A DNA stretch of 63,112 nucleotides from an uncultured Actinomycetes bacterium. Lineage in GTDB: Bacteria; Actinomycetota; Actinomycetes; Nanopelagicales; Nanopelagicaceae. Positions 9,131-18,900 of this stretch are shown here, piece after piece. The stretch lies in assembly GCA_903852815.1 (NCBI GenBank), contig CAINRW010000024.1:1-63112 (forward strand). Reading direction: 5' to 3'. The position numbers were made by a program, and so were the translations under genes. Below the pieces are notes generated by a model that was given only the letters and a program-made list of their open reading frames with translations, had not been told where the DNA came from and ran no database searches. Every line of letters starts with the position of its first letter. Positions within the stretch are counted from its first letter, which is position 1.

Positions 9131-9232
9131 TGTCCGTATTGTCCGTACTCCGCTACATGGGGGTATCTCTAGCGTAGAAGTAAATAGAGGGACGCTTCTA
9201 AGAACGTAGTAATCCATAAGGACGCTTCTACG
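9131..9232 (+). promoter_or_regulatory. Conserved upstream region of sigma cassette 1: TGTCCGT direct repeat plus AGCGTAGAAG and CTTCTACG arms
   Basis: TGTCCGT at 9131 and 9140; AGCGTAGAAG 9171-9180; GGACGCTTCTA at 9190 and 9220. Same layout upstream of cassette 2. Confidence 0.6.
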
Positions 9233-9248
9233 ATCAAGATTGGTCCAA

Positions 9249-10589
9249 GTGACTAACAAGAGCACGGCTCCACAAGGTTGGACCGTCGGCGACCTAGGCA
9301 GTTTTTATGCCGAGCACCGGTCAGAGCTCCACGCCCATGCCTCTCGCGTATTGAAAGACTCAATCAAGGCTCAAGAAATCACTCAAGATGCCTTAATCAA
9401 ATTCATGATGGCTGCTCCAGAGCTTGAATCTGCCGAACATGCGCTCTCTTATCTTCATCGCACTATTGAAAACCTTTGCATCGATTTCTTCCGCGCCGAA
9501 GGCCGTCGCCCTAATCTTGTTGTTCTAGATGATGCAACTGCAGAAATAGAAGCACATTGGCAAGACAGCGGAGATCACTCTGCGGCAATGTCAGCAGCTG
9601 AAGATGCAGCGATTATTCGCCAGGCACTTGCTTTGCTTTCTCCTGCAGAGCGCGCAGCTCTTGTTATGTGGGAAATCGAAGGTCGCTCTACAAGTGAGAT
9701 CGCGACAGAACTTGGCATTAAAGAAAGTGCAGTGCGCCATACCGTTTCACGTGCTCGTGTATCACTTCGTAAAGTTCTTGCAACGCTTGTTATTAATGAA
9801 GAGACCGGTCTTACTGCCCTCGATGCATTATCAACGACATACAAAAAAGCTGCAGAGCTTGCACAGAAATCATCTAAAGCTGCCCTCTCATTGCTTCTTA
9901 TCGTTACTGCTTTCTTTGGTTTTAACTCTATAAAAGGAACGCCTATCGCGATCGTCGAAACAACTACCGCGCCAACAGCTATTTCACAACCAACAGATCC
10001 ATCTGCTTCGGCTTCTCCTTCCATCACTGCTTCACAGAGTGCTGCAGCGGCAGCTGCTGAAAAGAAGGCGCAGATCGATGCACTTAACGTTAAAGCCGCA
10101 CCTATCTCTTTCTATGGTCTAGATAAAGCCGGTATTCCAACTGCTTTCACCGTGACTGATGAATCAAATGTTGCAGGAATTGGCCGAGTTACTAAGGGTG
10201 TTACATCTCTTGGAAATATCGGAATCATCATCAACAACCAGTTCATCACCGGCTCTGTTGGTCCAAACGTTCTTATCGATCAAGTCATCACAATTGATGG
10301 AACAGGTACTCACTACTCAGCAAACAGTGTCTCAGTCGGTTTTGTTAGCAACTGGAACGCTATTGAAGTAAACAGCATCGACACGATCATCGAGCGATTA
10401 GGTAATGGCACGTATTTGCTAAGCGCAACTTTCAACATCGGCTATCTCACTCCAACTGACTTTGCTTACCCAGTTGGAAATCGTGGAAGCGATCTAGCCG
10501 ATGCACCGAAAACAATCACAACGAAAATTTTAATGAATGCAGGAAAGACACAGGTACTTGCGCAAGCTGTTCAGGTGATTAACAAATAA
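9249..10589 (+). CDS. ECF-type RNA polymerase sigma factor with C-terminal TM helix and extracytoplasmic domain (cassette 1)
   Basis: Sigma region 2 (ASRVLKDSIKAQEITQDALIKFMMAA...SYLHRTIENLCIDFFRAEGRRP) and region 4 (ALALLSPAERAALVMWEIEGRSTSEIATELGIKESAVRHTVSRARVSLRK), TM SLLLIVTAFFGF, then ~230 aa of Ser/Thr/Ala linker and novel domain. GTG start at 9249 by alignment with copy 2; the track ORF starts at 9240. Confidence 0.88.
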   Translation: MTNKSTAPQGWTVGDLGSFYAEHRSELHAHASRVLKDSIKAQEITQDALIKFMMAAPELESAEHALSYLHRTIENLCIDFFRAEGRRPNLVVLDDATAEIEAHWQDSGDHSAAMSAAEDAAIIRQALALLSPAERAALVMWEIEGRSTSEIATELGIKESAVRHTVSRARVSLRKVLATLVINEETGLTALDALSTTYKKAAELAQKSSKAALSLLLIVTAFFGFNSIKGTPIAIVETTTAPTAISQPTDPSASASPSITASQSAAAAAAEKKAQIDALNVKAAPISFYGLDKAGIPTAFTVTDESNVAGIGRVTKGVTSLGNIGIIINNQFITGSVGPNVLIDQVITIDGTGTHYSANSVSVGFVSNWNAIEVNSIDTIIERLGNGTYLLSATFNIGYLTPTDFAYPVGNRGSDLADAPKTITTKILMNAGKTQVLAQAVQVINK

Positions 10590-10597
10590 AAAAATTT

Positions 10598-10729
10598 CCT
10601 CATCGCAACCGGATAGTCGATGGGGAATTTGGTGAATCAGCACGTGCGATTCATCGAACCGAGTTAGTGATTTTCTCGCCAAGTACGAGCTCATCACAAA
10701 ACTCAAGCCGACTCTCGGATCGTCCGAGA
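10598..10729 (+). promoter_or_regulatory. Structured intergenic leader between sigma gene and surface gene (cassette 1), four hairpins
   Basis: Stems: CCTCATCG/CGATGGGG; TGAATC-A-GCACGTGC-GATTCA; GTGAT..CTCG/CGAG..ATCAC; TCTCGGA-TCG-TCCGAGA. Confidence 0.6.
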
Positions 10730-10752
10730 ATCGACTAATCGAAAGGAAACAA

Positions 10753-12441
10753 ATGTCTACAAAGACAACTTTCAAGCGCATCGCGCTTGTAACTGTTGCA
10801 GCGTTGGGTCTCAGCCTTGTTGCTGTAGCTCCATCACAAGCAGTTGTGGTTGACCTAACTTGTACTGTTGCAGGAAATATCGCAACATCTACAACATGCA
10901 GCCAAAACTCAGGTGCAAACAATTACGTAGTTCTAACAGCTGGTTCAGCTGACATCTACATCACAATCGCTGGTGGATCAATCGTTGGTGGAGGATCATC
11001 AAAGGTAGTTACACATGACACTTCAGTAGCAATCGCTACACCAATAGTTGGAACAATTACTGTTACAGGTTATACATTTGCACTTGGTGCTCAGTCAGCA
11101 ACAGCAACAGATACTGTCGTAATCACAGTGACTGATGCAGTAGCTACGGCTCTTACTGCAGCTCGTATCGCTGGTACTTACTACGATCACTCAACTGCAT
11201 TTATCAAGTCAAGTTCACTTGGCTCAGAAGCAACTGTTGATTCAACAGGAATTACATCTATTAAAGATGCTTCTGCAACTCCTGTAGCTCGTGTAACTGT
11301 TAAGCAATATTCATCAACTGATGCTACTTACTTCATGACACCACTCAGCGCAAAGCTAGTGACTGTTGCTGTTGTTGGTGGAGCAGGTTATGTTTCAACA
11401 GCAAGCAACGGAACACTTTCTGGTCCATCAGCAAGCGTTACTGCAGATGAAAGTTCAGACTTCTATGTTTATCCAAATGGCAATGCAGGCGTTGCGTCAG
11501 TAACAGTTACTGTTAATGGTGTCCTACTTGCTACAAAGTCAGTTACTTTCTACGGAACTGCTACAGCACTCACAGCTGCAGTAGCAACAACTGTTCTTAA
11601 AATCGGATCAAACGCAGCAGCAGTAGTAGTTACTGCAAAAGACTCACTAGGTAACATTGTGCCAAACACACCTGTTTATCTAGTTTCAGATACAGCAGCT
11701 TCTATTGCAACAGGTACATCACTTGGTACAACAGATTCAACTGGAACACTTACAGCGGCCATTTCAGGTGTTGCTGCAGGATTAGCTTCACTTACATTTG
11801 CTAACGGAACAGATACAGCCGCAGTCGGTTATGTTGTTTCTGGTGCAACAGCAGTTCGCGTAAGTGCTGCCACATCTTCAACTGCAACTGGTGTAGTTCT
11901 TGCATTCGACAAGGACTCATACCTTCCAGGTGAAGTTGCAACTGTTACAGCAACTGTTACAGATGCATCTGGTGCTGTTCCAAGTGGAATTGGTTATGTT
12001 GTATTAACAGCAGGTATCACTTCATCTCTAGTAATGACTTCAGGTTCCCTAACTCTTGGAGCAATTACAACAACAATCACACCAACAGGTAATGCTGGAG
12101 CACAATCATTCACAGTCAACATGCCTTTATCAGCAGGTACAGTGACTCTTAGTGCTACTGGAGTTACTGGTGTAACTGTTACAAATGCAACAGCAGTAGT
12201 TGCTAATGATTCAACTGCAGCAGATGCAGCAGCAGAGGCAACTGATGCAGCTAACGCAGCAACTGATGCAGCTAACGCAGCAGCTGAAGCAGCAGATGCA
12301 GCAACAGCTGCAGCACAAGATGCAGCAGATGCAGTAGCTGCTCTTTCAGCACAGGTTGCGACTCTGATTGCTGGCCTAAAGGCTCAGCTAACAGCTCTAA
12401 CAAACCTAGTAATCAAGATCCAGAAGAAGGTAAAGGCATAA
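10753..12441 (+). CDS. Large secreted surface protein with Ig-like segments and Ala-rich heptad-repeat C-terminus (cassette 1)
   Basis: Signal peptide MSTKTTFKRIALVTVAALGLSLVAVAPSQA; Big-1-like 'VTAKDSLGNIVPNTPVYLVSDTA'; tail TDAANAATDAANAAAEAADAATAAAQDAADAVAALSAQVATLIAGLKAQLTALTNLVIKIQKKVKA. Confidence 0.85.
   Translation: MSTKTTFKRIALVTVAALGLSLVAVAPSQAVVVDLTCTVAGNIATSTTCSQNSGANNYVVLTAGSADIYITIAGGSIVGGGSSKVVTHDTSVAIATPIVGTITVTGYTFALGAQSATATDTVVITVTDAVATALTAARIAGTYYDHSTAFIKSSSLGSEATVDSTGITSIKDASATPVARVTVKQYSSTDATYFMTPLSAKLVTVAVVGGAGYVSTASNGTLSGPSASVTADESSDFYVYPNGNAGVASVTVTVNGVLLATKSVTFYGTATALTAAVATTVLKIGSNAAAVVVTAKDSLGNIVPNTPVYLVSDTAASIATGTSLGTTDSTGTLTAAISGVAAGLASLTFANGTDTAAVGYVVSGATAVRVSAATSSTATGVVLAFDKDSYLPGEVATVTATVTDASGAVPSGIGYVVLTAGITSSLVMTSGSLTLGAITTTITPTGNAGAQSFTVNMPLSAGTVTLSATGVTGVTVTNATAVVANDSTAADAAAEATDAANAATDAANAAAEAADAATAAAQDAADAVAALSAQVATLIAGLKAQLTALTNLVIKIQKKVKA
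12241..12348 (+). repeat. Degenerate 21-bp (heptad codon) tandem repeats in surface gene 1
   Basis: actgatgcagctaacgcagca is perfectly repeated at 12241-12261 and 12262-12282, followed by degenerate units. Confidence 0.75.
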
Positions 12442-12475
12442 TCGCCCCCCCTTTGATCTGAATAAGATCTAGAAC

Positions 12476-12516
12476 CAAAGCCCGGTTCCTCTTCGGAGGG
12501 GCCGGGTTTTGGCTTT
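12476..12516 (+). terminator. Rho-independent terminator of surface gene 1
   Basis: aaagCCCGGttCCTCttcgGAGGggCCGGGttttggcttt; TTCG tetraloop and T-run. Confidence 0.88.
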
Positions 12517-12550
12517 CTGGGGGCTTGAATCACGCTCGCTAATCATAAAA

Positions 12551-12622
12551 TGTCCGTTTTGTCCGTTCTCCACCACAAATTGACCAGTCCAGCGTAGAAG
12601 CAGATTGAAGGACGCTTTTACG
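12551..12622 (+). promoter_or_regulatory. Conserved upstream region and leader hairpin of sigma cassette 2
   Basis: TGTCCGT at 12551 and 12560; CGTAGAAGC (12593-12601) pairs with GCTTTTACG (12614-12622), just before GGAGA and GTG. Confidence 0.6.
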
Positions 12623-12637
12623 AATGGAGAAATTCAA

Positions 12638-13975
12638 GTGGCTAAAAAGAGCACGGCACCACATGTGTGGACCGTTGGCGATCTTGGCAGTTTTTATGCC
12701 GAGCATCGTTCAGAGCTCCATGCCCATGCCTCCCGTGTTTTGAAGAATTCAGCTAAAGCTGAAGAAATCACTCAAGATGCCTTAATCAAATTTATGATGG
12801 CTGCTCCAGAGCTTGAATCTGCTGAGCACGCACTTGCATATCTACACCGCACTATTGAAAACCTTTGCATCGATTTCTTCCGTGCCGAAGGCCGTCGCCC
12901 CAACCTTGTTGTTCTAGATGATGCAACTGCAGAGGTTGAAGCACAGTGGCAAGACAATGGCGACTATTCAGCAACGATGTCAGCTGCTGAAGATGCAGCG
13001 ATTATTCGCCAGGCACTTGCATTGCTTTCTCCAGCAGAGCGCGCAGCGCTTGTTATGTGGGAAATCGAAGGTCGCTCCACAAGTGAGATCGCGACAGAAC
13101 TTGGCATTAAAGAATCTAATGTTCGATACACAGTCTCACGTGCCCGCGCATCACTTCGTAAAGTTCTTGCAACGCTTGTTATTAATGAAGAGACTGGTCT
13201 TACTGCTCTCGATGCATTATCAACGACATACAAGAAAGCTGCAGAGCTTGCACAAAAATCATCTAAAGCTGCGCTCTCACTTCTTCTTATCGTTACTGCG
13301 TTCTTCGGTTTTAACTCACTTAAGGGAACACCTTCTACAATCGTCGATGCAACTTCATCAACGACAAACTCTGCAGAAGCTACTCCTTCACAATCTGCAT
13401 CACCTTCTATCTCTGCCTCACAGAGCGCTGCTGCGGCAGCTGCTGCAAAGAAGGCGCAGATTGATGCACTTAACGTTAAAGCTGCACCTATCTCTTTCTA
13501 CGGTCTAGATAAAGCCGGAATACCAACTGCTTTCACTGTAACTGATGAAACAAATGTTGCAGGTATCGGCCGTGTTACTAAGGGTGTTACATCCCTTGGA
13601 AATATTGGAATCATCATCAACAACCAATTCATCACCGGCTCTGTTGGTCCAAACGTTCTCATCGATCAAGTCATCACAATTGATGGAACAGGTACTCACT
13701 ATTCAGCGAATACCGTCAGTGTTGGTTTTGCCGAGAGCTGGAACGGCGTTGAAATAAACAGCATCGATTCATCGATTGAGCGCCTAGGAAATGGCACTCA
13801 TCTCATCACAGCAACTTTTGATATCGGTTATCTCAAGCCAACTGATTTTTCATTCCCAGTTGGAAACCGCGGAAGCGATCTTGCCGATGCACCAAAAACA
13901 ATTACTACGAAAATTTTAATGAATGCAGGAAAGACACAGGTGCTTGCGCAAGCAGTTCAGGTGACTAACAAATAA
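12638..13975 (+). CDS. ECF-type RNA polymerase sigma factor with C-terminal TM helix and extracytoplasmic domain (cassette 2)
   Basis: Close paralogue of 9249..10589 over its full length; GTG start with GGAGA upstream. The track ORF starts further upstream at 12605. Confidence 0.9.
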   Translation: MAKKSTAPHVWTVGDLGSFYAEHRSELHAHASRVLKNSAKAEEITQDALIKFMMAAPELESAEHALAYLHRTIENLCIDFFRAEGRRPNLVVLDDATAEVEAQWQDNGDYSATMSAAEDAAIIRQALALLSPAERAALVMWEIEGRSTSEIATELGIKESNVRYTVSRARASLRKVLATLVINEETGLTALDALSTTYKKAAELAQKSSKAALSLLLIVTAFFGFNSLKGTPSTIVDATSSTTNSAEATPSQSASPSISASQSAAAAAAAKKAQIDALNVKAAPISFYGLDKAGIPTAFTVTDETNVAGIGRVTKGVTSLGNIGIIINNQFITGSVGPNVLIDQVITIDGTGTHYSANTVSVGFAESWNGVEINSIDSSIERLGNGTHLITATFDIGYLKPTDFSFPVGNRGSDLADAPKTITTKILMNAGKTQVLAQAVQVTNK

Positions 13976-13983
13976 ATAGCTTT

Positions 13984-14115
13984 CCCTATCGCGTCCGGAT
14001 ACACGATGGGGAATTTGGTGAATCAGCACGTGCGATTCATCGAATCGAGTGAGAAGCGCTTTCGCGAAACGCGAAGGAGTTTTAAAACTCAAGCCGACTC
14101 TCGGATCGTCCGAGA
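13984..14115 (+). promoter_or_regulatory. Structured intergenic leader between sigma gene and surface gene (cassette 2), four hairpins
   Basis: CCCTATCG/CGATGGGG; TGAATCAGCACGTGCGATTCA (14019-14039); CTTTCGCG-AAA-CGCGAAGG (14059-14077); TCTCGGA-TCG-TCCGAGA (14099-14115). Confidence 0.6.
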
Positions 14116-14138
14116 ATCGACTAATCGAAAGGAAACAA

Positions 14139-15827
14139 ATGTCTACAAAGACAACTTTCAAGCGCATCGCGCTTGTAACTGTTGCAGCGTTGGGACTCAG
14201 CCTTGTTGCTGTTGCTCCATCACAAGCAGCATATAACGCACTTGCATGTACTGTTGCAGGTTCAGGCGCTGGTTCATCATCAGTTGCTTGCAGCCAGAAC
14301 TCAGGTGTAAACAACTACGTAGTTCTATCTGCTAACAACTCAAAAGATCTATACATCACAATTGCTGGTGGATCAATGGTTGGCGGAGGATCAGTAAAGG
14401 TAGTTACAGCAGGCGGTTCAGTTGCAATTGCAACACCAACAGTTGGAACAATCACAGTAACTGGTTACACATTTACTGCTGGTGCTCAGGCAACAACAGC
14501 TACAGATACTGTAGTAATCACAGTAACTGATGCAGCTGCTGTAGCTCTTGCTGCAGCTCGCGCAGCTGGTACTTACTTTGAGCGCTCAACAGCATTCATC
14601 GGTGCAGGTTCATCACCTGTTTCTTCAGATACAGCTAATTTAGTTGCTCCAAAGGCAGCTTCATCAACTCCTGTTGCTAACATCGAAGTTATTCAGTACT
14701 CAACAGCTACTGGCGTTTCTCCAGCAGTTATGATGCAGAACGCAAGTGCAAAGCTAGTAACAGTTTCTGTTGCTGGTGGAGCAGGTTACGTTTCAACAGC
14801 TAGCAACGGAACTCTTGCTGGACCATCTGCAAGTGCAACTGGTGCTGCAGATTCTGATTTCTACATCTACTCAAACGGTAATGCAGGAGTAGCTTCAATC
14901 ACAGTATCTGTTAACGGATCAGTAGTTGCTACAAAGTCAGTAACTTTCTACGGAACAGTTGCTTCACTAACTGTTGCGCCAGCACAGTCACTATTTTGGA
15001 ACGGCTACTCAACTCCTAATGCAACTGTGATCACTGCAAAGGATTCATTGGGTAACGTAGTTCCTAACGTTGACATCTACACTGTTTCAGATGCAACAAC
15101 AGTAATTGCTGATAAGAATTATGTTGGATACACAGATTCAAAGGGTGTTCTCAGTGCAACCATCGCCAGCCTTGCAGTTGGTACAGCATCATTAGCTTTT
15201 GCTAATGGAACTGATTCAACAGCGGCTGGTTATGTAGCTACATCAGCAACAGCAGTTCGCGTAAGCGATGGTTCTGGTGATATCTCTGTCGTAGTTTCAT
15301 TCGACAAGGACACATACCTTCCAGGTGAAGTTGCAACAGTTACATACACTGTTTCAAACGCAGCTGGTCCAGTTCCAGCATGGAGCTCTGCTTCTGGTTA
15401 TGTGAATGACACAACATCATCACTAGCTCTTACAACGAATAACCTACCTTCTTATTATTTGAATATTAAGGGTGATAAGGGTCAGGCTTCATACAAGGTC
15501 AACATGCCTCTATCAGCAGGTACAGTTGAACTTTCAACTACTCCTTACTCAGACTCAGTCAAGGTAACTAATGCATCAGCAACAGTTGCTCTAGATACAA
15601 CTGCAGCAGATGCAGCAGCAGAGGCAACAGATGCAGCTAACGCAGCAACTGATGCAGCTAACGCAGCAGCAGAAGCAGCAGATGCAGCAACAGCTGCAGC
15701 ACAAGATGCAGCAGATGCAGTAGCTGCTCTTTCAGCACAGGTTGCAGATCTAATCGCTGGCCTAAAGGCACAGCTAACAGCTCTAACAAACCTAGTAATC
15801 AAGATCCAGAAGAAGGTAAAGGCATAA
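14139..15827 (+). CDS. Large secreted surface protein with Ala-rich heptad-repeat C-terminus (cassette 2)
   Basis: Signal peptide MSTKTTFKRIALVTVAALGLSLVAVAPSQA and ~90 aa C-terminus nearly identical to cassette 1; ATG at 14139 preceded by GAAAGGAAAC. The track ORF starts upstream at 14049. Confidence 0.88.
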   Translation: MSTKTTFKRIALVTVAALGLSLVAVAPSQAAYNALACTVAGSGAGSSSVACSQNSGVNNYVVLSANNSKDLYITIAGGSMVGGGSVKVVTAGGSVAIATPTVGTITVTGYTFTAGAQATTATDTVVITVTDAAAVALAAARAAGTYFERSTAFIGAGSSPVSSDTANLVAPKAASSTPVANIEVIQYSTATGVSPAVMMQNASAKLVTVSVAGGAGYVSTASNGTLAGPSASATGAADSDFYIYSNGNAGVASITVSVNGSVVATKSVTFYGTVASLTVAPAQSLFWNGYSTPNATVITAKDSLGNVVPNVDIYTVSDATTVIADKNYVGYTDSKGVLSATIASLAVGTASLAFANGTDSTAAGYVATSATAVRVSDGSGDISVVVSFDKDTYLPGEVATVTYTVSNAAGPVPAWSSASGYVNDTTSSLALTTNNLPSYYLNIKGDKGQASYKVNMPLSAGTVELSTTPYSDSVKVTNASATVALDTTAADAAAEATDAANAATDAANAAAEAADAATAAAQDAADAVAALSAQVADLIAGLKAQLTALTNLVIKIQKKVKA

Positions 15828-15860
15828 TCTGCCCCCTTTGATCTGAATAAGATCTAGAAC

Positions 15861-15900
15861 CAAAGCCCGGTTCCTCTTCGGAGGGGCCGGGTTTTGGCTT
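15861..15900 (+). terminator. Rho-independent terminator of surface gene 2
   Basis: Same sequence as cassette 1: aaagcccggttcctcttcggaggggccgggttttggctt. Confidence 0.88.
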
Positions 15901-15974
15901 TTCTGGAAGGCTTTCTCGACTGGCACGCAGACAAGGTTCAGGCAGTTCTCAGGAAAAAGGTATCTAATATCCAC

Positions 15975-17327
15975 ATGACTACTCCAACACGCATCTATAA
16001 GCACTCAGGCGCTGGTACAGACTGGGCCGCGCTGGTTCTGGGCCTTGGGTTGGGCTTCACAATAGCTTTGGAGTTAACAACGGTACGCAAAAGTGACTTC
16101 ATATCTGTCTATGCCTCGATAGCTACTTTTTCTCGAATTTCTGCATTAGTAGGAACGTATCTGGCAATCGTAGGAATCTTTTTAGTAGCTCGAATCCCCT
16201 GGGTTGAAAAAGGTGTTGGTCATGATCGATTGGTTACCTGGCACCGCAATTTAGGTCCATGGTCTTTGTATGCAATTGGTGCACATGTTGCTTTTATTAT
16301 TTTATCTTTCGCAGGTCAAGATTCAATTCCTCTGTATAAAGAATTATGGCGAATGCTCAATACTTTCGACTGGATGTGGTTTGCTTTAGCAGGATTTATT
16401 CTGATGGTTTTAGCTGGAGTTACTTCATATAAAAAAGCACGGGCAAAGATGAGTTATGAAACGTGGTGGATTATTCACGTTTACACATACTTGGCAGTTG
16501 CTGCATCCTTTATGCACCAAGTTATTAATGGTCAGATGTTTATTGGTCACCCATTAAACCGTGCTTATTGGACCGCGTTATATATTTTCATGGCATTCTC
16601 AATTATTTATTGGCGCTTTGGTGTTCCACTGGTGCGATCTCTAAAGATTAATTTGCGAGTCGAGAAAGTTGTAGTTGAAGGCCCAGGAGTAATTTCAGTA
16701 ATCATGAAGGGCCGTAATCTGCACACATTAGGTGCACAAGGTGGTCAATTCTTCGGTTGGCGTTTTCTTACTCGCGGCCATTTCTTGATGTCACATCCTT
16801 ATTCACTTTCGGCAGCACCGACTGAACATTTGATGCGAATTACAGTCAAGGACTTAGGTGATCACTCACGTTCATTAGCATTTATTAAGCCTGGTACCCG
16901 TGTATTTGTTGAAGGTCCATACGGTGCCTTTACTGCAGGGCGAAGTACACGACCACATGTTGTTTTAGTTGGTGGCGGGGTTGGAATCACTCCGATTCGC
17001 GCAATCATGGAAGAACTAAGTGGCGGCGTGCAGATGGATGTTATTTTCCGAGCATCAAAAGAAGAAGATTTAGTTTTGAAAAAAGAACTTGATTACATGG
17101 CATTTAATAGCGGTGGGTCTATCCGTATTCATTACTTAGTGGGATCACGCAAGAAGCACCCAATGGATGTTTATGCAATGCGCCGACTAGTCCCACAGTT
17201 TGCAGATTCAGACGTTTACATCTGTGGACCAGAGCCATTGGTAAGTGCAGTTCGTGAAGCTTTTGAAAAGGCTGGTGGATCAAAGAATCGCTTCCATGAC
17301 GAGGCATTTGCTTTCCACCGCGAATAA
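15975..17327 (+). CDS. Ferric reductase-like transmembrane protein with FAD/NAD(P)-binding oxidoreductase domain
   Basis: Multiple TM segments with His residues (WHRNLGPWSLYAIGAHVAF, WWIIHVYTYLAVAASFMHQ), then HPYSLSAAP, FVEGPYGAF, VLVGGGVGITPIRAIM, VYICGPEPLV. ATG at 15975. Confidence 0.9.
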   Translation: MTTPTRIYKHSGAGTDWAALVLGLGLGFTIALELTTVRKSDFISVYASIATFSRISALVGTYLAIVGIFLVARIPWVEKGVGHDRLVTWHRNLGPWSLYAIGAHVAFIILSFAGQDSIPLYKELWRMLNTFDWMWFALAGFILMVLAGVTSYKKARAKMSYETWWIIHVYTYLAVAASFMHQVINGQMFIGHPLNRAYWTALYIFMAFSIIYWRFGVPLVRSLKINLRVEKVVVEGPGVISVIMKGRNLHTLGAQGGQFFGWRFLTRGHFLMSHPYSLSAAPTEHLMRITVKDLGDHSRSLAFIKPGTRVFVEGPYGAFTAGRSTRPHVVLVGGGVGITPIRAIMEELSGGVQMDVIFRASKEEDLVLKKELDYMAFNSGGSIRIHYLVGSRKKHPMDVYAMRRLVPQFADSDVYICGPEPLVSAVREAFEKAGGSKNRFHDEAFAFHRE

Positions 17328-17392
17328 AACACGCAGGTGTATATGCGATTGCCTTAAGAATTTTCTCAGGGAGATGGCGTTTAGTAGGCATT

Positions 17393-17423
17393 AAGACAAG
17401 CAAGATTGGTAAGACAAGCAAGA
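17393..17423 (+). repeat. 13-bp direct repeat AAGACAAGCAAGA, 18-bp period, upstream of the FMN-binding gene
   Basis: Perfect copies at 17393-17405 and 17411-17423. Confidence 0.6.
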
Positions 17424-17451
17424 CGGATGTGACAAACGAGAGGTAGCGAAG

Positions 17452-18108
17452 ATGAAAAGAGCACTGTTAATAGCAGGCGGCACTTTAGGTGGACTCGGCG
17501 CAGTAATGGCAATTACACCGCCACAATTATCTTCAACTAACTCATTAGGCCTTATAGGAGCAGGTGCAATCGGGGCACCTGCCGTGACTGATACTTCAAC
17601 GGCTTCTGCTACACCTACTGCGTCGTCAACCAAAGCTGCAACCACAAAACCAGTAGCGACCAAGAAGGCAACACCAGCTGCAACGAAGAAGGCAACACCA
17701 GTGGCAAGTAAGAGTGCAACCGCGCAAGCTACTGCAACAGCCAGTGCCAGTGCATCGGCAACGCCGGCTGCGACTCCAACAAAAACAGCAACGCCTGTCG
17801 CAACTAAAACAACAGCACCTGTCGTTACGAAATCTACAAGTGGAACATTTGCTGGTCCAGCAATTTTCGTGAACTACGGAACAGTTCAAGTTCAAATTAC
17901 TGTAAATAATGGAAAGATCACTGATGCAAAGGCGCTTCAAGCACCTAACGGTCGCAGTCAGCGTTGGACAGATATGGCAGTTCCAACTTTGCGTCAGCAA
18001 ACATTGAGTGCACAATCAGCAAATATCCAAGGTGCATCAGGTGCTTCATACACTTCTTATGGTTGGTATAAATCTTTACAGGGGGCTCTCGCTAAAGCTG
18101 GTCTCTAA
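17452..18108 (+). CDS. FMN-binding domain-containing secreted protein
   Basis: Signal/TM N-terminus, Thr/Ala/Lys-rich linker, then VQVQITVNNGKITDAKALQAPNGRSQRWTDMAVPTLRQQTLSAQSANIQGASGASYTSYGWYKSLQGAL, the RnfG/NqrC-type FMN-binding domain. Confidence 0.88.
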   Translation: MKRALLIAGGTLGGLGAVMAITPPQLSSTNSLGLIGAGAIGAPAVTDTSTASATPTASSTKAATTKPVATKKATPAATKKATPVASKSATAQATATASASASATPAATPTKTATPVATKTTAPVVTKSTSGTFAGPAIFVNYGTVQVQITVNNGKITDAKALQAPNGRSQRWTDMAVPTLRQQTLSAQSANIQGASGASYTSYGWYKSLQGALAKAGL

Positions 18109-18129
18109 AGTATTAGATAGGCTCTAGCA

Positions 18130-18900
18130 ATGAACCACGTACGCAGACAGTTTCCTGTTTGGGGAACCATCATTGACGTGGATTGTTCTTCTCAAGTAAT
18201 TGATTCAAACCAGTTAAACAACGCAGTACAAGACATCCGAGATTTTTGTGTAACAGCTGATGAGGATTTTTCAACCTACATTGATTCGTCTTGGGTCACT
18301 CGATTACGCCGAGGAAAAGTAGAGATTCACGATTGTCCCAAAAACATTCAAGCGGTTTGGAACCTTTGCGAACAGGCAAAATACTTAAGTGACGACGCTT
18401 TCGATCCTTGGGCCGTGGAGGGTGGTTTCGATCCTTCTGGATTAGTAAAAGGTTGGGCAGCAGATATTTGCGCCGACATGTTGGTCTCTGCTGGCGCGCA
18501 GCATGTACAAATTAATGCCGCCGGTGATTTAGCATTGCGCGGCGGATATTTTGATTCTGCAGATGGCGTGATTAAGCCTTGGAAAATCGGGGTCGTTAAT
18601 CCAGATAACAAGCAAGAAATATTACAAACTTTTGAAATTACTGATGGCGCGATTGCAACATCAGGGACATACGAACGCGGTGCGCACATCACCGACCCAT
18701 ATACGGGCATGATTGCCATCGGTGCAAAATCTGCAACTGTTGTTGGGCCAGATGGGTGGCTGTGTGATGCTTTGGCAACAGGATTAATGGTTGCTGGTCA
18801 GGATGCAGCAAAGTGGTTTGGCCAGGAAGAGTTAGCCGACTATAAAGTTTGGGTGATTGATCGACATGAAAATAATGCATGGAGTATTGGTGACGAGTGA
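18130..18900 (+). CDS. FAD:protein FMN transferase (ApbE family)
   Basis: GGFDPSGLVKGWAADICADML...INAAGDLALRG...ITDGAIATSGTYERGAHITDPYTG...SATVVGPDGWLCDALATGLMV. Confidence 0.92.
   Translation: MNHVRRQFPVWGTIIDVDCSSQVIDSNQLNNAVQDIRDFCVTADEDFSTYIDSSWVTRLRRGKVEIHDCPKNIQAVWNLCEQAKYLSDDAFDPWAVEGGFDPSGLVKGWAADICADMLVSAGAQHVQINAAGDLALRGGYFDSADGVIKPWKIGVVNPDNKQEILQTFEITDGAIATSGTYERGAHITDPYTGMIAIGAKSATVVGPDGWLCDALATGLMVAGQDAAKWFGQEELADYKVWVIDRHENNAWSIGDE

Follow-up and report, generated by a model that had tools for sequence, protein, structure and literature searches.

Tandem cassettes in an acI actinobacterium join a membrane-fused ECF sigma factor, a structured leader and a putative surface protein

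The same module occurs twice in tandem in a 63 kb contig (63,112 nt, hereafter the window) of a 1.63 Mb Nanopelagicaceae genome with an estimated completeness of 94.7%. Both copies lie within positions 9131–15897 and run in the order promoter-like element, ECF sigma factor gene, 163-nt leader, gene for a secreted Ig-like protein and terminator (Table 1). We consider it likely, on balance, that each copy is an autoregulated operon in which a self-tethered sigma factor is encoded together with a surface protein whose yield is set by the leader. More tentatively, we suggest that the cassettes represent an undescribed acI system, comprising an envelope-sensing self-tethered ECF sigma factor that acts on its own operon, a new structured leader class that controls the surface protein and is coupled to the ectodomain and, in some lineages, a tyrosine-recombinase inversion that swaps silent surface genes into a single expression site.

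Results

Two diverged copies of one module

Two consecutive copies of the same architecture, too diverged to be an assembly duplicate, had been predicted from the sequence, and whole-length alignment upheld both points. Copy 1 (9218–12520) and copy 2 (12608–15906) aligned by blastn with 78.8% DNA identity across 3,364 columns. Identity was 100% between leader helix P4 and the ATG, 98% in the signal peptide and 94% in the 3'-most 250 nt of the surface gene but 78% in the middle of that gene, and this unevenness rules out an assembly duplicate. The sigma factors share 88% protein identity and the secreted proteins 66%. Both copies end in the same terminator, CCAAAGCCCGGTTCCTCTTCGGAGGGGCCGGGTTTTGG. 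No third copy was found in the genome of the window. Ferric reductase-like, FMN_bind and ApbE genes lie 3' of the cassettes (15894–18900), and some relatives (L050 and L123) have a similar set close to theirs.

Table 1. Coordinates of the cassette features in the window
Feature	Position	Strand	Basis
Promoter-like element, copy 1	9131–9177	+	Type A conservation upstream of sigma
Sigma 1	9249–10589	+	Pfam, hydropathy, alignment, AlphaFold2 (ectodomain)
Sigma 1 TM helix	9879–9935	+	Hydropathy
Sigma 1 beta ectodomain	10092–10586	+	Alignment, AlphaFold2
Leader RNA 1	10590–10752	+	Covariation, folding, covariance-model match (134 bits)
Leader 1 P1	10596–10627	+	Loop UCCGGAUA nearly invariant in relatives
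Leader 1 P2	10628–10658	+	Bulged A, ACGU loop
Leader 1 P3	10661–10704	+	Variable
Leader 1 P4	10706–10735	+	Covariation, folding
Leader 1 Shine-Dalgarno AAAGGA	10742–10747	+	
Surface protein 1, putative (562 aa)	10753–12441	+	Signal peptide, Ig-like domains, C-terminal helix (~12211–12435)
Terminator hairpin, TTCG loop, copy 1	12475–12512	+	Sequence, identical to copy 2
Promoter-like element, copy 2	12551–12597	+	Type A conservation upstream of sigma
Sigma 2, architecture as sigma 1	12638–13975	+	Pfam, blastn, hydropathy
Sigma 2 TM helix	13268–13324	+	Hydropathy
Sigma 2 ectodomain	13478–13972	+	Same architecture as sigma 1
Leader RNA 2	13976–14138	+	Covariation, folding, covariance-model match (139 bits)
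Leader 2 P1	13983–14012	+	
Leader 2 P2	14013–14045	+	
Leader 2 P3	14047–14090	+	
Leader 2 P4	14092–14121	+	
Surface protein 2, putative (562 aa)	14139–15827	+	ORF, blastn
Terminator hairpin, TTCG loop, copy 2	15860–15897	+	Sequence

The sigma factors are fused to a membrane helix

Both sigma factors are ECF (group 4 sigma-70) proteins with canonical regions 2 and 4: each matched Sigma70_r2 and Sigma70_r4_2 in Pfam (E values of 1e-12 to 1e-14), and PF04542, PF08281 and TIGR02937 exceeded their cut-offs in both. Comparison with homologues favors GTG start codons at 9249 (446 aa) and 12638 (445 aa) over the TTG codons listed. In sigma 1, regions 2 and 4 are followed by a conserved juxtamembrane helix, a TM helix, a low-complexity linker and a beta ectodomain. 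Hydropathy gave the hydrophobic helix AALSLLLIVTAFFGFNSI as the sole TM candidate in each protein, and a single TM helix was present in all 42 sigma factors compared. Outside the sigma domains, conservation in the alignment peaks at the linker LSTTYKKAAELAQKSSK and the TM helix, consistent with a functional tether. The comparison thus supports the predicted self-tethered sigma factor with an extracytoplasmic domain, and, as was also predicted, no anti-sigma-like gene was present among the ORFs neighboring either copy. Pfam detected neither a zinc-finger family (up to E = 1) nor a carbohydrate-binding module in the two proteins. Given the lack of a recognizable anti-sigma domain, tethering alone would have to hold the sigma factor off. 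The genome encodes a site-2 protease (M50), which is weak support for proteolytic release because 14 of 14 control genomes also carry one.

The ectodomain was modeled by AlphaFold2 as an all-beta domain of 165 residues (pLDDT 91.9), and fold searches against the PDB and viral models returned no significant matches. We propose that it senses the state of the envelope. It is missing from the sigma factors of three relatives in two genera (L036, L042 and L217), each of which retains the juxtamembrane and TM helices, and is otherwise conserved among relatives, with invariant residues. The three shortened proteins have a different short C terminus in common.

The module is linked to a surface gene across Nanopelagicaceae

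A search of 298 genomes of the order with sigma 1 gave matches in 144 at E ≤ 1e-10; weaker matches (~30% identity, sigma domain only) resemble other ECF sigma factors, and roughly 100 of the 298 genomes carry this one. The sequence downstream of region 4 was found in Nanopelagicaceae only and in none of approximately 225 genomes that represent other families of the class; on this sampling, the module does not extend beyond Nanopelagicaceae (acI). Named records assign the cassette to Nanopelagicaceae, including Candidatus Planktophila. Some public records bearing the titles Bifidobacterium breve, Streptomyces griseus or Dehalococcoidia (L089, L091, L096, L098, L107 and L109) also carry cassettes, and these titles are probably wrong because the cassettes are of the acI type.

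Co-occurrence of the ectodomain with the surface gene, which the original prediction led us to expect, was seen wherever it could be assessed: the surface gene came next after the sigma gene in all 41 of the fetched loci whose sequence extended far enough. One locus (L045) shows a variant start. In a second collection of 69 ectodomain loci, which overlaps the first, the leader lay directly behind the ectodomain in 61, and the other eight were interrupted by contig ends.

The leader is a structured RNA

The spacer between the two genes had been described as rich in hairpins, and folding agreed with this, with stability z scores of -4.3 and -5.2 against shuffles for the two copies. An alignment of 37 leaders gave three helices, in which 26 of 32 pairs showed compensatory, both-sided changes. 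Paired cells reached 97.1%, compared with 33–47% for slid partners, a comparison that is flattered because the structure was derived from the same sequences; shuffles never attained the observed values. Given the distance from the controls and the double changes, the leader almost certainly forms a real RNA structure. Among its loops, UCCGGAUA and ACGU hardly vary. At the gathering score, Rfam gave no leader match for the window or the loci of five relatives, and the leader appears to be a new class absent from that database; hits obtained at relaxed thresholds lay in Ala-rich repeats and coding region and were judged to be chance.

Leaders beside the three ectodomain-less sigma genes lack the P1 hairpin with loop UCCGGAUA and keep the ACGU hairpin, which suggests, from three genomes, that leader and ectodomain are functionally coupled. 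An alternative fold in which the 5' strand of P1 (GUUUCCU in relatives) pairs with AGGAAAC of the Shine-Dalgarno region was also considered, but was absent from minimum-free-energy folds; these sequences are too invariant for covariation to judge.

Promoter-like elements precede the sigma genes

In copy 1, a TGTCC direct repeat (9131–9144) is followed by a -35-like CGCTACA (9151–9157), 15 nt and a -10-like CGTAG (9173–9177); copy 2 has the TGTCC repeat at 12551–12564, CACCACA at 12571–12577 and CGTAG at 12593–12597. Across relatives we distinguished a type A element, AAATGTCCGTTTTGTCC followed by CGCKACA-N15-CGTAG, and a type B element, CAACATTTG-N11-GTGTCTTNACTANTAGAGGG. The elements were recognized by conservation alone, and the -35/-10 assignment is ambiguous because the TGTCC repeat could belong to the promoter. 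Type A was located upstream of the sigma gene in 23 loci and essentially nowhere else in the 600 kb scanned. Over the same 600 kb of loci, full elements of either type occurred at the sigma gene and never before the surface gene, and the few looser matches elsewhere were chance-like. The genome of the window contained two matches, one ahead of each sigma gene, and thus no wider regulon of the element. An exact match in a genome from another family (G301) adjoins type IV pilus genes and was left out of consideration.

Sigma factors fall into two clades, and element type matched clade without exception in 38 typed loci; the genus of the window contains both types. This match is as autoregulation predicts, although the A/B split follows two deep clades and thus represents few independent changes. 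A dyad of the CGTAGAAG...CTTCTACG type (9171–9233 and 12591–12624) overlaps the -10-like site and the start of the sigma message, and is possibly an operator or a 5' hairpin.

There was no vegetative promoter-like site between the sigma and surface genes, and the region of the sigma 3' end and leader contained one sigma-70-like site, compared with 8.7 expected by chance. The surface gene is probably co-transcribed with the sigma gene because it has no promoter-like element of its own, and a terminator lies after each surface gene. The original prediction was that each sigma factor drives its adjacent surface gene and perhaps itself. The autoregulatory part gains from the presence of the element only before the sigma gene; a surface gene that is a separate target is disfavored, and co-transcription is likelier.

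The secreted protein is predicted to have Ig-like domains

The model of surface protein 1 (mean pLDDT 74.6; residues 1–144 unreliable) has Ig-like domains in tandem and a terminal helix of 75 residues. Among many Ig-like folds, the matches included invasin-like proteins and S-layer proteins, with low TM-scores (~0.12–0.23 by query length). Pfam found no known anchor motif, and a surface location of the secreted protein is plausible from these predictions. The secreted proteins of relatives mostly start with MSTKTTFKR and often finish with an Ala-rich helix and KIQKKVKA. Many relatives carry, 3' of the surface gene, a Wzy_C O-antigen ligase-like gene, which suggests that the protein may be glycosylated. 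In two close relatives (L055 and L056), secreted-looking proteins of >2,000 aa are encoded directly downstream of the surface gene.

Some relatives carry a probable inversion switch

Searching genomes with the leader model revealed surface-gene copies with no sigma gene, several with P3, P4 and the ribosome site only. In five loci (L047, L048, L149, L153 and L167, the last from a single-contig genome), two surface genes are convergent, and a Phage_integrase-family recombinase gene lies between or beside each pair. The two genes share a near-identical block that starts no further than 14 bp from a CTCAT-N5-ATGAG dyad; identity from dyad to ATG is 84–100%, and in the 60 bp ahead of the dyad 17–24 of 60 positions match. 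Paired dyads of one locus are inverted and have an identical 5-nt spacer, and spacers differ among several genomes. Inverted sites, identical spacers and a recombinase, as expected of a phase-variable locus, thus occur together in all five, which are probably invertible switches for surface protein expression. One genome per species was compared and inversion is deduced from sequence; a search for past inversion through crosswise identity between genomes found no orthologous pairs that were sufficiently close.

The CTCAT-N5-ATGAG pattern occurred 30 times in 25 of 298 genomes, with no occurrence of the reversed control among the matches listed. Some genomes have the dyad with no second surface gene or recombinase beside it; therefore, it may also serve as RNA. 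Recombinase homologues distant from the surface genes in seven genomes (G130, G067, G174, G132, G111, G221 and G075) were not counted. In L172 (genome G155), two recombinase genes lie between two convergent surface genes, and the contig breaks off close to the 5' end of each surface gene, as inverted repeats would be expected to cause. Extra dyads lie near other small secreted genes in L152 (12905 and 13998) and L171 (3042 and 3431); the two L152 dyads are inverted relative to each other and their spacers match, which raises the possibility that the device acts on other genes. The pattern was also seen on viral contigs.

Switching between the tandem copies had been suggested in the original prediction. 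We rejected a switch within the window because its genome has neither a CTCAT-N5-ATGAG cassette site nor a recombinase homologue.

Discussion

In the model we favor, the ECF sigma factor would be held at the membrane through its own C-terminal helix, which replaces a separate anti-sigma factor. The ectodomain would sense envelope state and an intramembrane protease would cut the conserved juxtamembrane/TM segment, and the freed sigma domain would then transcribe its own operon from the upstream ECF-like promoter to give a bicistronic sigma-surface protein message. By affecting message stability, processing or translation, the leader would set the yield of surface protein, such that little sigma factor and much surface protein are made. 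The near-identical sigma factors and promoters of the two operons probably cross-activate. Our grounds are the architecture, the linkage, the fold of the RNA, where the promoter elements lie and how their type matches the sigma factor; from these we infer co-transcription, autoactivation, proteolytic release, surface location and the role of the leader. The architecture and self-tethered sigma factor that had been predicted stand as well-supported interpretations, and the idea of switching points to relatives rather than to the genome of the window.

Constitutive expression is common among major surface proteins, and some relatives have a second surface gene with no sigma gene ahead of it, so the surface gene might be expressed constitutively from its own vegetative promoter while the sigma factor regulates itself or unrelated genes and their adjacency is inherited synteny. 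We find this unlikely: the adjacency persists across approximately 10 genera with different flanking genes, sigma-70-like sites are scarcer than chance, and most sigma-less copies begin at P3 and lack P1 and P2, as expected for silent cassettes. It is quite improbable that the tether is constitutive rather than part of a sensor, so that the surface gene is transcribed at the membrane near the secretion machinery and the ectodomain is put to another use. The conservation of the ectodomain elsewhere, with its invariant residues, and the altered leader where it is missing, which suggests functional coupling, count against such a role, even though three relatives have lost the domain and kept the TM helix and surface gene, and its fold is unlike any solved structure.

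The leader could also act chiefly in DNA recombination, with its hairpins as recombinase sites rather than regulatory RNA, because surface-gene copies in relatives are homologous from the P3 dyad CTCAT-N5-ATGAG onward and a tyrosine recombinase lies near those loci. This we regard as very improbable. Genomes lacking a recombinase or second copy have compensatory changes in P1 and P2, both helices are missing from the sigma-less copies at switch loci, and P3, the likely site, is variable or absent in many single-copy loci.

Freshwaters across the globe harbor abundant acI bacteria, on which phages are believed to prey heavily (PMC10202952). Little is known of how their outer surface is controlled or varied, and we found nothing in the open-access papers searched that joins Nanopelagicales with S-layers or phase variation. 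The locus supplies a candidate surface protein, a probable dedicated regulator and an apparently new leader RNA, to which some relatives add a candidate DNA switch that could swap the surface protein. Lineages with the cassette include cultured, phage-infected strains (LanE-43, locus L081).

Membrane-fused ECF sigma factors are already known, and the acI form is new by its predicted domain content. Like the actinobacterial ECF52, ECF53 and ECF48 groups, it joins an ECF sigma factor through a TM segment to an extracytoplasmic part and has no separate anti-sigma factor, and autoregulation has been proposed for those groups (PMC5826349, PMC8999054); SCO4117 (ECF52) of Streptomyces coelicolor is thought to autoactivate (PMC5826349). 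Unlike ECF52 and ECF53, it has no zinc-finger domain between sigma and TM segments by Pfam, and unlike ECF52 no carbohydrate-binding module, its ectodomain matching no PDB fold. It differs from all three in its short cytoplasmic linker and in being genetically fixed to a surface protein gene with a structured leader. Pseudomonas putida IutY (ECF243) likewise fuses a sigma factor to a membrane-bound extension and is active once this is removed, proteolytic release having been shown for IutY and proposed for ECF48, ECF52 and ECF53 (PMC8999054). However, IutY is an iron-starvation cell-surface signaling protein fused to an anti-sigma factor, and no such partner or domain is present here. The tandem Ig-like domains resemble those of SbsC, Sap, invasin and FdeC by fold comparison, with low TM-scores, but the acI protein has a long C-terminal helix and no anchor motif found by Pfam. 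In the relatives only, the candidate switch recalls the Vpma and Vsp systems of Mycoplasma (Xer1), which have a recombination site in the 5' untranslated region before the start codon (in Vpma, within 72 nt ahead of each start codon), a conserved signal-peptide region and a tyrosine recombinase in the locus (PMC2268961). The putative acI inversion differs in being deduced from sequence and in the absence of the device from the window, and the acI loci have two or three surface genes, an expression site with a dedicated sigma factor, and extra leader hairpins.
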